Both the position numbers and the translations under genes were made by a program. Below the pieces are notes generated by a model. It ran no database searches, was not told where the DNA came from, and was given only the letters and a program-made list of their open reading frames with translations. Shown piece by piece: positions 507-54,245 of a DNA stretch of 64,000 nt. Each line of letters begins with the position of its first letter. The stretch's first letter is position 1. Origin of the DNA: Oscillospiraceae bacterium (GTDB taxonomy: Bacteria > Bacillota > Clostridia > Oscillospirales > Oscillospiraceae). The stretch covers positions 1 to 64,000 of the forward strand of contig SVLI01000005.1 in NCBI GenBank assembly GCA_015068035.1. Direction: 5' to 3'.

Positions 507-656
507 GCCTCCCCTGTGTAAGGGGAGGTGCCCAGTGCGCACACTGGGCGGAGGGGTTGTGCTTGTTGCCCGTCGCAGCCACGCCGTTAATGCGCACCGT
601 CAACCCCTCCGGCTTCGCCTTACGGCTCAGCCACCTCCCCTTACACAGGGGAGGCT
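507..656. repeat. Family A inverted pair (MITE-like)
   Basis: Two copies of the double-hairpin repeat face each other. The plus copy is 507-559 (hairpin CCTCCCCT-GTGTA-AGGGGAGG, second hairpin GCCCAGTG/CACTGGGC, then GAGGGGTTG). The minus copy is 600-656. About 41 bases separate them, and this core (TGCTTGTTGCCCGTCGCAG...) recurs in the pair at 15896-16040. No coding sequence is supported here. Confidence 0.8.
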
Positions 657-3120: not shown

Positions 3121-3403
3121 TTTTGCACCGCAACCGCGGCAGATGGAGGCACCGTGCCTCCGGCGGCCCCATTTCTCTTTTTGAAAAAGAGAAACAGGGG
3201 AAAGAGAAAACGCGCCTGCGGGCGCAGGATTAAAAAGCGCGCTTCGCGCTGTATGTAGGGTGCGCGCGCTGACGCGCGAAAGTGTCGCGGCGGACTTCGT
3301 AGCCGCCGCTGGTGCGCTGCGACGGGCAAGAAGTTTTTGCCGCACCCTCCCCAAAAAGCCTCCCCTGTGTAAGGGGAGGTGCCCCGCAGGGGCGGAGGGG
3401 TTG
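3121..3403 (+). repeat. Family B copy 2 followed by a family A unit
   Basis: 3121-3350 is a family B mosaic in plus orientation (CTCTTTTT/AAAAAGAG hairpin near 3174-3191). 3358-3403 is a family A unit whose second hairpin is GCCCCGCAGGGGC, followed by GGAGGGGTTG. From 3404 to about 3590 nothing recognisable is seen. Confidence 0.75.
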
Positions 3404-3596
3404 ACAGCCTCGCAGAGTTCGCGTCCGCAGACGCGAAAAAAGTCATGGCGTTTTCTCCGGTGGCGTGTACGGCGGAGAAAACTCTGCTCGCCGCGCAAAC
3501 GTGCGAGCTGCCCTTTGGCAGCGAGTGCGCTGCAGCGCGGTGCTTAGCCCCTTGGGAATGAAAGGCTCTGCCTTTCATCCCAGTCAAATTTCCCTA

Positions 3597-5974: not shown

Positions 5975-6323
5975 TCTCAAATCTTCTTGCCCGTCGCACC
6001 GCACCAGCGGCAAAAGGAGGCACCCTGCCTCCGGCGGCCATATTTCTCTTTTTGAAAAAGATAAATATGGAAAAGAGAAAACGCGCCTGCGGGCGCGGGG
6101 TTAAAAAGCGCGCTTCGCGCTGTTTGTAGGGTGCGCGCGCTGACGCGCGAAAGTGCCGCGGCGGACTTCGTGGCCGCCGCTACATTGGGAAGGACGGGCA
6201 ACAAGTTTTTGCCGCAGACCGACTTTGCACCCCGGCGCTTTGCCTCCCTTGTGTCGGGAGTGCTCCGCACCCCTTGCCTCCCTTGTGTAAAGGGAGGTGT
6301 CAGCGAAGCTGACGGAGGGATTG
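5975..6323 (+). repeat. Family B copy 3 plus a family A unit
   Basis: 5975-6228 is family B in plus orientation, with an imperfect CTCTTTTT/AAAAAGA hairpin. 6276-6323 is family A with second hairpin GTCAGCGAAGCTGAC followed by GGAGGGATTG. Just before it, TGCCTCCCTTGTG-TCGGG (6241-6257) is a broken A arm. From 6324 to 6620 the DNA becomes A/T-richer and holds nothing recognised. Confidence 0.7.
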
Positions 6324-6628
6324 TCGGGGAAGAGGGTTTGTGCAACTTCACCATTTGCGCGGCCCGGCGAAGCATACCCGCCCGCCTCCGGCAATATAGT
6401 GAATCAGCCCCCTCTGCGCGCGGGGAACGACCCGCCCGGAAGAGAATTCCCCCTACGGGGGAATTTTCATCGGCAATCCAAACAAAAAAATCGCCGGATT
6501 TTTGACAAAAAGATGCAACTGCTATTTCTTGCGTTTTTCATTGGTCACTTTCCACAAAAAACGAAAAGATCTTTGACAACATCACCAAAAACAGGAACGC
6601 AGAAAAACAATTTATTTGGCAAGAACAC

Positions 6629-12516: not shown

Positions 12517-12605
12517 TCTATAAGCGGAGAAGCTGGCATGAAAGGCAGAGCCTTTTGCCATCCCCCCCAAAAAAGCCTCTCCTCTGTCGGTGCGCACCAA
12601 TCCTA

Positions 12606-13104
12606 AGCCTCCCCTGTGTAAGGGGAGGTGCCCAGTGCGCACACTGGGCGGAGGGGTTGACAAAAATCCGATGCACACGGACTTGATGCCACGGAGGGAA
12701 CACCATGCAGCCAAAACACAATAAACAGCTGACTCCGTACGCAAAGCAGCTGCGCAAGGACATGACAAAGGAAGAGCGCCATCTGTGGTATGACTTTCTG
12801 CGAAGCTATCCGGTGCGCTTCTCAAGGCAGAAGGTGCTGGGGCAGTACATCGTCGATTTTTACAGCGCTGAGGCAAAAATCATCATTGAATTGGACGGCT
12901 CACAGCATTACGAGCTGTCCGCACAGCGGGAAGATGCGCATCGCAGCGCATTTTTAGAGGAATACGGACTGACGGTGATCCGAATCCCCAACAGCGAAGT
13001 CAATCGGAATTTTGAAGCTGTGTGCGCACATATTGATACCGCAGTAAGACAATCCCTCAGTCACGGCTAACGCCGCGACAGCTCCCTTTACACAAGGGAG
13101 CCTC
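12606..13104. mobile_element. Candidate element: DUF559 gene bounded by inverted family A repeats
   Basis: The left end (12606-12661) is a family A repeat in plus orientation. The right end (13050-13104) is a family A repeat in minus orientation. They enclose only the DUF559 gene, whose last codons lie inside the right repeat. The same inverted arrangement without a gene occurs at 507-656, 15896-16040 and 25939-26083. Mobility is inferred; no target duplication was defined. Confidence 0.45.
12705..13070 (+). CDS. DUF559 endonuclease-like protein
   Basis: 121 residues of the DUF559 family, related to very-short-patch-repair-type nucleases. Family features seen: an N-terminal basic LTPYAKQLRKDMTKEERHLW, RQKVLGQYIVDFYS, then IIELDGSQHY with the acidic residue of the nuclease core, and YGLTVIRIPNSEV. 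It is about the usual length. The gene sits between two inverted family A repeats, and its C-terminus is encoded in the right one, so it may belong to the repeat element. The upstream GGAGGGAACACC supports the start. Biochemical function in this family is not established. Confidence 0.8.
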   Translation: MQPKHNKQLTPYAKQLRKDMTKEERHLWYDFLRSYPVRFSRQKVLGQYIVDFYSAEAKIIIELDGSQHYELSAQREDAHRSAFLEEYGLTVIRIPNSEVNRNFEAVCAHIDTAVRQSLSHG

Positions 13105-13175
13105 TGCACCCCCACAACACCCCCCCAACTTTCGCATATCCATAAAATATAAGAAAATATAAGGAGGAACCCCCT

Positions 13176-15621: not shown

Positions 15622-16040
15622 CTTGGCTCCCCCTTTGGGGGAGCTGGCGCCGTCAGGCGACTGAGAGGGCAACGCCGCAGCCACGGCAGCGCATCGAGGC
15701 ATTCCATGCCTCCGGCGGCCACATTTCTCTTTTTGAAAAGAGAAATATGGAAAAGAGAAAAGCGCCTGCGGGCGCGGGGTTAAAAAATTATCGCTTCGCT
15801 CTGTGGTGCGCGCGCTGACGCGCGAAAGTGTCGCGGCGGACTTCGTGGCCGCCGCTGGTGCGGTGGGACGGGGAAGAGGTTTTTGCCGCACCAGAGGCTC
15901 CCTTGTGTAAAGGGAGCTGTCACCGAAGGTGACTGAGGGATTGTGCTTGTCGCCCGCCGCAGCCACGCCATAAGACCGAACCGTCAACCCCTCCGTCTTC
16001 GCCAGTCGGCTCAGCCACCTCCCCTTACACAGGGGAGGCT
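15622..16040. repeat. Cluster: A-type unit, family B copy 4 and family A inverted pair
   Basis: 15622-15670 is an A' unit (GGCTCCCCC hairpin, ending GACTGAGAGGGC). 15671-15895 is family B in plus orientation. 15896-15943 (plus) and 15984-16040 (minus) are a family A inverted pair around a 40-base core that resembles the core at 560-599. Nothing here looks coding. Confidence 0.75.
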
Positions 16041-17759: not shown

Positions 17760-17804
17760 TGTTTTGATGCTTTGCACCCAAGCCTTTATTTGGCGCTCCC
17801 TCTG

Positions 17805-18170
17805 TCGGTGCGTTAAGAAAATGTGCCGGTGGCACATTTTTAGCACCGACCGCAGCGGCTATGCCGCGAGGAGGGAAGTCGGTAGGCGCGTTCCACCGCA
17901 ACTGCGGCAGGTAGAGGCATTCCATGCCTCCGGCGGCCCCATTTCTCTTTTTGAAAAAGAGTCGGCGCGTTAAGAAAATGTGCCGGTGGCACATTTTTAG
18001 CAGCCGACCGCAGCGGCTATGCCGCGAGGAGGGCAGTTGGATGATAGGGCGGGCGCGCTTGCGCGCGAAAGTGTCGCGTCGGACTTCGTGGCCGCCGCTG
18101 GTGCAACAGAACGGGCAAGATGAGCCGCATCGCCGTGCGTGCGCAGCGACGGGTGAGAGGATTTGCCCGC
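17805..18170 (+). repeat. Tandem family C copies 3 and 4 interrupting family B
   Basis: C copy 3 is 17805-17885. The family B block 17886-17961 stops in the middle of its CTCTTTTT/AAAAAGAG hairpin. C copy 4 (17962-18042) starts exactly at that break. The rest of family B (from CGCGCGAAAGTGTCGCG on) resumes at about 18043-18170, with the middle section missing. Confidence 0.75.
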
Positions 18171-25938: not shown

Positions 25939-26521
25939 GCCTCCCCTGTGTAAGGGGAGGTGCCCAGTGCGCACACTGGGCGGAGGGGTTGACCCGTTCA
26001 CCGACTGAGCCATTACGGGCAACAAGAATCAATCCCTCAGTCAGCCTTACGGCTGCCAGCTCCCTTTACACAAGGGAGCCTCCGGTGCGGCGGAAACCCA
26101 AAGCCTCCCCTGTGTCGGTGCGTGCAGCGCCCCCCAAGCCTCCCCTGTGTAAGGGGAGGTGCCCCGCAGGGGCGGAGGGGTTGCGCTTGTTCCCCGTCCC
26201 GCCGCACCCACGGCGATGCGGCTCATCTTGCCCGTTTCTGCGCAGTAGTGGCGGCTACGAAGTCCGCCACGGAGCTTTCGCGCGAAGCGCGCAGGAAACA
26301 GAGCGAAGCGATAATTTTTTTAACCCTGCGCCCGCAGGCGCGTTTTCTCTTTTCCATATTTCTCTTTTTCAAAAAGAGAAATGTGGCCGCCGGAGGCCGG
26401 GCGCCTCCCTCTGCCGCTGGTGCGGAAGGACGGGCAACAAGTTTTGGTGCAGCCTTAAAACAACGCACCAGTCTCTTGGCTCTCCCTCTGGGAGAGCTGT
26501 CAGCGAAGCTGACTGAGAGGG
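25939..26521. repeat. Repeat cluster between argF and carA
   Basis: Family A inverted pair 25939-25992 (plus) and 26030-26083 (minus). A plus unit at 26138-26183 has second hairpin GCCCCGCAGGGGC. Family B copy 6 (minus) is 26186-26446, and an A' unit is 26476-26521 (GTCAGCGAAGCTGAC). CCTCCCCTGTG-TCGGTGCG at 25905-25923 and 26104-26122 are A arms joined to the terminal 8 bases of family C. No promoter for carA was recognised. Confidence 0.75.
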
Positions 26522-39779: not shown

Positions 39780-40027
39780 GGCAAAGCCCCCCCTTACACA
39801 AGGGAGCCTTAGAGGCTGCGGCAAAAACTTCTCTCCCGTCGCTTTGACCTCCGGCGGTGCGGCTCGTCTCACCCGTTTTGTCGCAGTAGTGGCGGTTACG
39901 GAGTCCCGCCACGGAGCTTTCGCGCGAAGCGCGCGCCGCCCTATAATCCGGCTTCCCTCCTCGCGGCACAGCCGCTGCGGTCGGTAGCTAAAAATGTGCC
40001 ACCGGCACATTTTCTTAACGCACCGAC
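39780..40027 (-). repeat. A fragment, family B copy 8 and family C copy 5
   Basis: 39780-39808 is half of a family A hairpin (minus). 39811-39948 is a diverged family B block (minus). 39949-40027 is a complete family C unit (minus), followed at once by CACAAGGGAGGCTT, the other half of an A arm. The C-B junction is at the same B position as at 18043. Confidence 0.7.
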
Positions 40028-40057
40028 ACAAGGGAGGCTTTCTTCTTTTCCTCGCCG

Positions 40058-53656: not shown

Positions 53657-53924
53657 TTGCGATTCACTCCTCAATTTTTTTCGATGATATGGAATAACCG
53701 AGCCGCGCCTGCGTGTTTGCGCAAGGCACAGTCCAATAACTAATACTATACTATAAGCTGGAAAAAAGCAAATAGAAAAGCGAAAAAAAGAGAGAATTTT
53801 TCCGAAGAAATGCCGCCGTTTGGGAAAGACTGCACAAAGCGCGCGGGCTTGTTTTCTTGCGCGGACGTATGTTCGCGACCAGCGGACAAATTTCCCGCCC
53901 ACCAAAGCCCTGCCGAAGCACAAA

Positions 53925-54245
53925 AAGCCTCTCGCCCGCCCATCCACGCCCGCGGCGATGCGGCTCATCTTGCCCACTGCTTCGCAGTAGCGGCGGCTAC
54001 GAAGTCCGCCGCGAACCTATCGCGCGAATGCGCGCGCAACCACAGAGCGAAGCGATAATTTTTTAATCCTGCGCCCGCAGGCGCGTTTTCTCTTTCCCCT
54101 GTTTCTCTTTTTCAAAAAGAGAAATGGGGCCGCCGGAGGCACGGTGCCTCCTCCGCCGAGTTGGACGGCTCTGCTGCGGGTGCGAACTCTGCGAGGCTCT
54201 GTGCACCGCCGTGACTGCGCGCGTAGAGGGAGTTTTTGCCGCACC
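53925..54245 (-). repeat. Family B copy 7
   Basis: Minus-strand family B with the CTCTTTTT/AAAAAGAG hairpin at 54097-54128. A/T-rich DNA from 53657 to 53810 probably carries the hppA promoter (TATAGT-type repeats near 53740), which I could not fix precisely. Confidence 0.7.

Follow-up and report, generated by a model that had tools for sequence, protein, structure and literature searches.

A DUF559 gene that lies between inverted palindromic repeats, with gene-less copies of those repeats nearby, raises the question of whether gene and repeats form a mobile unit and, if they do, what part the encoded protein plays in it. We analysed this arrangement in a 64-kb stretch of DNA from Oscillospiraceae (here called the window, at its full length), in which the following features were identified.

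12605..13104, + strand: whole repeat-nuclease unit, 494 bp from outer stem to outer stem (12608-13101)
12605..12659, + strand: left arm (L flavour), with stem-loop 1 at 12608-12628, stem-loop 2 at 12631-12648 and tail CGGAGGGGTTG
12705..13070, + strand: gene for a single-domain DUF559 (EDxHD/Vsr-like) nuclease of 121 aa, assigned by Pfam, invariant residues and fold
13049..13104, - strand: right arm (R flavour), with stem-loop 1 at 13081-13101 and stem-loop 2 at about 13060-13079
507..656, no strand assigned: gene-less head-to-head dimer, L-L by arm flavours
15896..16040, no strand assigned: gene-less head-to-head dimer, R-L by arm flavours
25939..26083, no strand assigned: gene-less head-to-head dimer, L-R by arm flavours (arm order as in the nuclease unit)
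3357..3410, + strand: single L-type arm
6275..6325, + strand: single arm
26137..26190, + strand: single L-type arm adjoining the third dimer

In a Pfam profile search, the window gene matched PF04480 (DUF559) with an E value of 1e-30 (106 bits, compared to a cut-off of 20.6), and the only Pfam families that it matched were DUF559, MTES_1575, and DUF2726. It is the single DUF559 gene above the cut-off in the window's genome, and it lies between head-to-head repeats as the original prediction had said. The left arm consists of AAG-CCTCCCCTGTGTAAGGGGAGG at 12605-12628, the second hairpin, and the tail; on the minus strand, the right arm reads GCTCCCTTGTGTAAAGGGAGC (13101-13081), followed by an imperfect second hairpin and the tail TGAGGGATTGT, and it holds the last codons and the stop codon (13068-13070) of the DUF559 gene. 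The repeats had been described as terminal inverted repeats of about 55 bases. Inverted repeats do enclose the nuclease gene, but the match between left and right arms is confined to the outer hairpin (21/25 positions), so left and right are related repeats, each with two hairpins but of different flavour, and not long identical terminal repeats.

In the window we counted 12 copies of the outer stem, 11 of them exact and 1 with one mismatch, compared to 0 in 100 shuffles, and 13 of the 14 stem copies in the window's genome are on the window's contig, 12 of them inside the window. All three of the predicted gene-less head-to-head pairs are present. At another locus (L166), a gene-less dimer still contains both extreme ends of the nuclease reading frame; the retained stretches are short (11 to 13 nt), and on this sequence evidence it is suggestive only that the dimer may be an internal-deletion derivative of a nuclease unit. 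Other gene-less dimers, at L128 and in G506, have almost no core. The proposal of an autonomous element with non-autonomous derivatives is supported: the two checks suggested for it, described below, both came out in its favour, and gene-less derivatives exist, one of them with gene-end bases, while biochemical autonomy has not been shown. We also noted that the arm can be part of larger arrangements: at L186 (4437-4600) it occurs in a tandem array with a 54-bp period, and the DUF559 units of L134, L137, L138, L139, L140, L141, and L173 are nested in a more extensive repeat that they have in common, whose palindromes include AATTTGAATTTGTC and which also has a hairpin, CCGACCTATG...CATAGGTCGG. 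The G506 gene-less dimer is enclosed by an outer inverted repeat similar to the one around these units.

To ask whether DUF559 genes are flanked by repeats more often than other genes, we used two locus sets, one from a one-genome-per-species sample of the window's family (133/400 genomes DUF559 positive) and one of 80 named loci with proteins close to that of the window, with at least 4 loci common to both. The arm score was a local alignment of the 150 bp upstream of a gene with the reverse complement of the 150 bp downstream, counted as positive at 14 or above, a threshold picked on the first set. For a control, we scored the other genes of the same loci; flanks mis-paired between genomes were dropped as a control because the arms are homologous across genomes. 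Inverted arms were found within 150 bp of 48% of 95 DUF559 genes compared to 0.8% of 380 other open reading frames in the first set, and of 69% of 75 compared to 1.7% of 415 in the second, an enrichment of about 40 to 60 times, so the answer is yes. By the same test, about 31 to 52% of DUF559 genes have no detectable arms; some of these may be decayed, and others, such as ycjD of Escherichia coli, may have another role. Among DUF559-like proteins with weak matches, sampled in other families of the window's phylum, 0/24 had arms. A strong match from another of these families (L369) has arms, and a strong match from the window's family (L367) does not. The association also holds at the level of whole genomes: where the exact stem CTCCCTTGTGTAAAGGGAG is present 5 times or more, DUF559 is enriched (odds ratio 7, P = 0.0002), and a reversed-pattern control gave zero. 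Some genomes with at least 5 repeat copies nonetheless have no DUF559 match (G097, G107, G142, and G145), and most of these are incomplete assemblies. Presence of DUF559 is patchy even within one genus (18/41 genomes), with up to ten matches per genome.

The unit has defined ends at the outer edges of its arms. In 1372 directed all-against-all comparisons, homology between related copies ended mostly 60 to 90 nt before the DUF559 domain and 20 to 40 nt after the stop codon, and these break points are the outer ends of the arms. The median unit length from outer stem to outer stem is 454 bp, and the termini of the commonest arm class are AAAG...CTTT. Related units occur in unrelated contexts in many gut bacteria, with presence and absence at orthologous sites. 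Elements were compared pairwise: of 358 pairs with an identity of 80% or more over 400 bp or more, just 22 had any flanking protein in common. A search for target-site duplications found no excess of flanking direct repeats (1.52, compared to 1.40 when shuffled), which leaves very short duplications possible.

Comparison of sites with and without the unit had also been proposed as a check, and such sites were found at two levels. In the sister species G001, whose genes are 94 to 97% identical to those of the window, the window's unit is missing at the orthologous site: homology of the flanks breaks at 12558 and resumes at 13109, and the site holds other repeats rather than being cleanly empty. 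The DUF559 gene of G001 carries another arm variant and lies roughly 10 kb from there, at a position where the window has none. In another genus, the gap between truB and ribF measures -2 to 26 bp in G372, G493, G408, and G487, contains a solo hairpin in two species and gene-less dimers elsewhere (for example, in G506), and is occupied by a nuclease unit in G278 and G495 (class D) and in G458 and G471 (class C). The genomes are mostly metagenome assemblies, one per species, so gain at the population level was not seen. In G483 (L326), a dimer of the CGTC type, CGTCATTGCGAGCCAGT...GGCAATCCCC, occupies the same gap.

The two arms of one element evolve in concert, and arm class tracks nuclease clade. 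A pyrimidine-left hairpin is found on both sides in 136/201 loci, and no combination is more frequent than the left/right difference seen in the window, an outer C-G pair against an outer G-C pair (66/132 loci). The mean arm-to-arm match within a locus was 0.74, compared to 0.42 (standard deviation, 0.015) with right arms permuted; without the commonest class, the values were 0.68 and 0.31, respectively. On a tree of 132 nucleases, arm class changed 33 times, compared to 66 in shuffled data (minimum, 60). When classes were shuffled within genera only, the 22 observed changes compared to 31.5 (minimum, 26; 0/300 shuffles reached 22). Since arm class follows nuclease clade within genera, this association is not explained by host relatedness. 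There are many distinct arm variants, each with its own nuclease clade, and G278 alone has four DUF559 genes, each between its own different matched pair of arms, with extra gene-less copies of every arm variant in the 400 kb read. A second hairpin of at least 6 bp is present in 62% of arms, compared to 5% of shuffles, while 192 distinct sequences were counted among 272 arms, which suggests that the structure is kept as the sequence turns over.

The protein's fold is that of an EDxHD/Vsr-type nuclease, its active-site residues are invariant, and it is under purifying selection. D51, E62, D64, G65, H68, D77, and R80 are invariant in 40 relatives, and the median dN/dS ratio over 166 pairs was 0.07. 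A structure model of the window protein (mean pLDDT, 85.8) matched a DUF559 structure from Neisseria (3hrl; Z score, 15.2), the homing endonuclease I-Bth0305I (3r3p; Z score, 12.4, with 96 residues aligned), and Vsr (Z score, 10.4). It thus has both the catalytic fold and the conserved active site (D51, E62, D64, and H68) expected of a homing endonuclease of this type. No Rfam match was obtained, and the only match to a defence system was weak and partial. The invariant residues, the fold, and the dN/dS ratio point to an active, selected nuclease, with the activity itself not shown.

Our preferred reading, to which we assign a probability of roughly 0.7 in the absence of any cleavage, binding, or movement data, is that of a minimal mobile unit in which two head-to-head two-hairpin repeats surround a small site- or structure-specific nuclease that acts on those repeats, with the gene-less dimers and single arms as its non-autonomous relatives. 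That nuclease and repeats are cognate partners in something mobile is the component of this reading that we consider highly probable; that the copying is homing-like rather than true transposition is a component on which we find the evidence evenly balanced. Under the proposed mechanism, the nuclease would recognise the arm or dimer cognate to it, which may be extruded in the form of hairpins or a cruciform, and would nick or cut at or near it, after which host recombination, replication, or repair machinery would copy the unit. The destination would be either a gene-less dimer already in place (homing between the half-sites TTGT|ACAA) or a new intergenic site. A gene placed between the half-sites of a gene-less dimer would indicate homing, and a whole unit in a repeat-free gap would indicate transposition.

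The alternatives differ in what moves and in whether movement matters at all. A free-standing gene of the homing-endonuclease type might instead have invaded gene-less dimers that spread by another route, the arms then being target half-sites and recombination homology rather than transposon ends. We regard this as possible, on tentative grounds: I-Bth0305I and Vsr are the closest folds, dimers with almost no core (L128 and G506) exist and are of the kind that the gene splits at TTGT|ACAA when it inserts, no target duplication was found, and homology breaks at the arm ends are predicted by this model too. It leaves unexplained how the dimers themselves spread and why arm class follows nuclease clade within genera, and the L166 dimer resembles a deletion product of a unit, not a precursor. 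Another explanation, which we consider unlikely, is that repeats and nuclease serve the host, in hairpin repair, in the control of replication or recombination at repeats, or in Vsr-like mismatch repair, with movement being ancient or incidental. The strong purifying selection fits such a role, as does, from the part of the source available, the proposal that the Caulobacter DUF559 protein VsrA is a mismatch-repair nuclease (PMC12907096); the patchy presence across the family and within a genus, the many matches in some genomes, the unrelated contexts of the units, and the reciprocal presence and absence between two sister species do not.

It is also conceivable that the repeats belong to a REPIN/RAYT system, as ordinary REPs that depend for their movement on a Y1 transposase encoded elsewhere in the genome, with DUF559 as a passenger. 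The head-to-head dimers do resemble REPINs, and Y1_Tnp genes are present in 16/24 genomes with units and/or repeats. In the other 8 there is no Y1_Tnp match, none of 19 scored Y1 loci has a hairpin of the unit's type (2 have other inverted repeats containing GTAG), and arm class tracks the DUF559 clade; we consider this explanation very improbable and rejected the RAYT/Y1 transposase as an unlikely mobiliser. Two Y1_Tnp genes, of G097 (L350) and G000 (L363), are RAYT-like genes between inverted repeats, GTAGGGGCGGC...GCCGCCCG, which suggests that a REP-RAYT system of the GTAG type coexists with the DUF559 one. Finally, intergenic repeats are dense and turn over fast in the window's genus, so that repeat-rich regions could surround small genes at random, as an artefact of chance or annotation. 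We find this scarcely tenable, since the arrangement is seen at only 0 to 2% of other genes, short ones included, and since the weakly matching DUF559-like proteins of other families are all unarmed, whereas the strong match L369 is armed.

The mobile repeat-nuclease unit that we favour shares features with several known systems. I-Bth0305I, which is from a phage, has the same EDxHD/Vsr catalytic fold and, as a free-standing homing endonuclease, is likewise a single small nuclease gene gained or lost at defined sites; the window-type gene differs in being accompanied by inverted two-hairpin arms of its own and in being found at many unrelated places in chromosomes. As in MITEs and their autonomous partners, there are inverted ends and gene-less internal-deletion derivatives (as suggested by L166), but the unit lacks a DDE or other classical transposase, no target duplication was detected, and its ends are hairpin arms. 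It has the defined ends and the presence/absence at orthologous sites of an insertion sequence or classical transposon but not the DDE, serine, tyrosine, or HUH transposase, DUF559 being its only gene. A further parallel is with REP/REPIN-RAYT systems (REPtrons; GTAG-tagged REPs, PMC3733652, PMC8266576), which share short palindromic repeats that flank a nuclease gene, head-to-head dimers, many gene-less copies, a repeat type that follows enzyme type, intergenic location, and the absence of a detected target duplication. In contrast to these, the enzyme is a PD-(D/E)XK/EDxHD-type DUF559 nuclease and not a Y1 HUH tyrosine transposase, each arm has two hairpins, and no consistent GTAG tag was seen in the AAAG...CTTT termini (no dedicated scan was made). 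The unit thus works like a REP-RAYT system but fails the test of the enzyme that defines one.

What is already established is DUF559 as a family with a Vsr-like fold, one member of which, VsrA of Caulobacter, has been studied as a possible repair nuclease. To the extent that the source was available, VsrA is interpreted as acting in mismatch repair linked to a cytosine methyltransferase; it is, like the window protein, a DUF559 nuclease, one able to harm the host genome, and differs in its proposed repair role and in that no repeats are mentioned in that part of the source (PMC12907096). No open-access paper was found that links DUF559 to flanking repeats; subscription journals and bioRxiv were not covered, so novelty is not proven.

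The repeat-nuclease pattern recurs, in looser form, in Deinococcus and Alphaproteobacteria. In a small cross-phylum sample (22 records of plasmids, chromosomes, and phages, drawn from misfiled or megaplasmid entries), 11/22 DUF559 genes had inverted arms, compared to 3/81 other genes, and the armed loci include all four Deinococcus genes and one gene of Sinorhizobium meliloti, which lies between very long inverted arms (score, 94). Several of the cross-phylum DUF559 genes are inside operons (sufB|sufC, pnt, paa, and hpa). RIME (rhizobial intergenic mosaic elements) have two palindromes per repeat, a feature shared with the unit, and the S. meliloti gene between long inverted arms is a further likeness, without sequence comparison with RIME; no enzyme for RIME is named in the portion of the RIME literature that was available. 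CGTC-tagged REPs, which have an unpaired CGTC beside an 8- to 9-bp stem and a CCA tail, have been reported without a dedicated transposase (PMC3733652). They resemble the unit's repeats in being orphan palindromic repeats, and some L arms, unlike other arm classes, read CGTC-stem-loop-GCCA on the reverse strand; Caulobacter and Neisseria carry both CGTC REPs and DUF559 genes. No CGTC arms were recognised at DUF559 loci of Neisseria, Azospirillum, and Sinorhizobium, and the one Neisseria locus examined had neither CGTC arms nor inverted flanking arms, so there is no clear support for a link between DUF559 and CGTC REPs, which remains a lead only. In the Neisseria gonorrhoeae DUF559 locus (L242), copies of a repeat with CTCTCCCTGTGGGAGAG hairpins surround the gene in the same orientation and are not inverted.

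Short palindromic repeats fill the intergenic regions of many bacteria, and several large classes, such as the CGTC REPs (PMC3733652), have no known dedicated enzyme. A broader proposal, whose chances of being right or wrong we judge to be equal, is that intergenic repeats with two hairpins form a very widespread supergroup, spread over several phyla (Oscillospiraceae, Deinococcus, Alphaproteobacteria, and perhaps the RIME and CGTC types), and that DUF559 nucleases are its cognate enzymes. Nucleases and repeats would then make up a second counterpart of REP-RAYT, of independent evolutionary origin, with a Vsr/homing-type nuclease as its driver and autonomous units about 455 bp long. If this is true, a protein annotated as being of unknown function is the engine of one of the smallest known mobile elements, bench experiments can address where a class of orphan repeats comes from, and caution is needed before every DUF559 gene is taken for a repair enzyme.

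The E. coli gene ycjD, a DUF559 gene at sapF|fabI (L258-L261), was found in 3365/5426 complete genomes. We rejected this locus as a case of clean insertion and empty site, as two genomes without ycjD have an efflux operon beside sapF. One ycjD copy is truncated by a 106-bp deletion between short direct repeats.

The window's genome is compositionally uneven, with the stem repeats clustered on one contig, and among contigs C1 to C17 of this assembly (G000; L003-L020), C3, C9, C12, C14, and C17 diverge strongly in tetranucleotide make-up; the metagenome-assembled genome may be mixed or unusually heterogeneous. The window also contains several other long intergenic repeat families, in mosaics with AATGTGCCGGTGGCACATT and TTTCTCTTTTTGAAAAAGAGAAA motifs, at 664-872, 3123-3346, 5994-6217, 15675-15892, 17798-18164, 26193-26446, 39834-40041, and 53924-54160. 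The content of these mosaic repeats is very unlike between the two sister species despite the 94 to 97% identity of the flanking genes.
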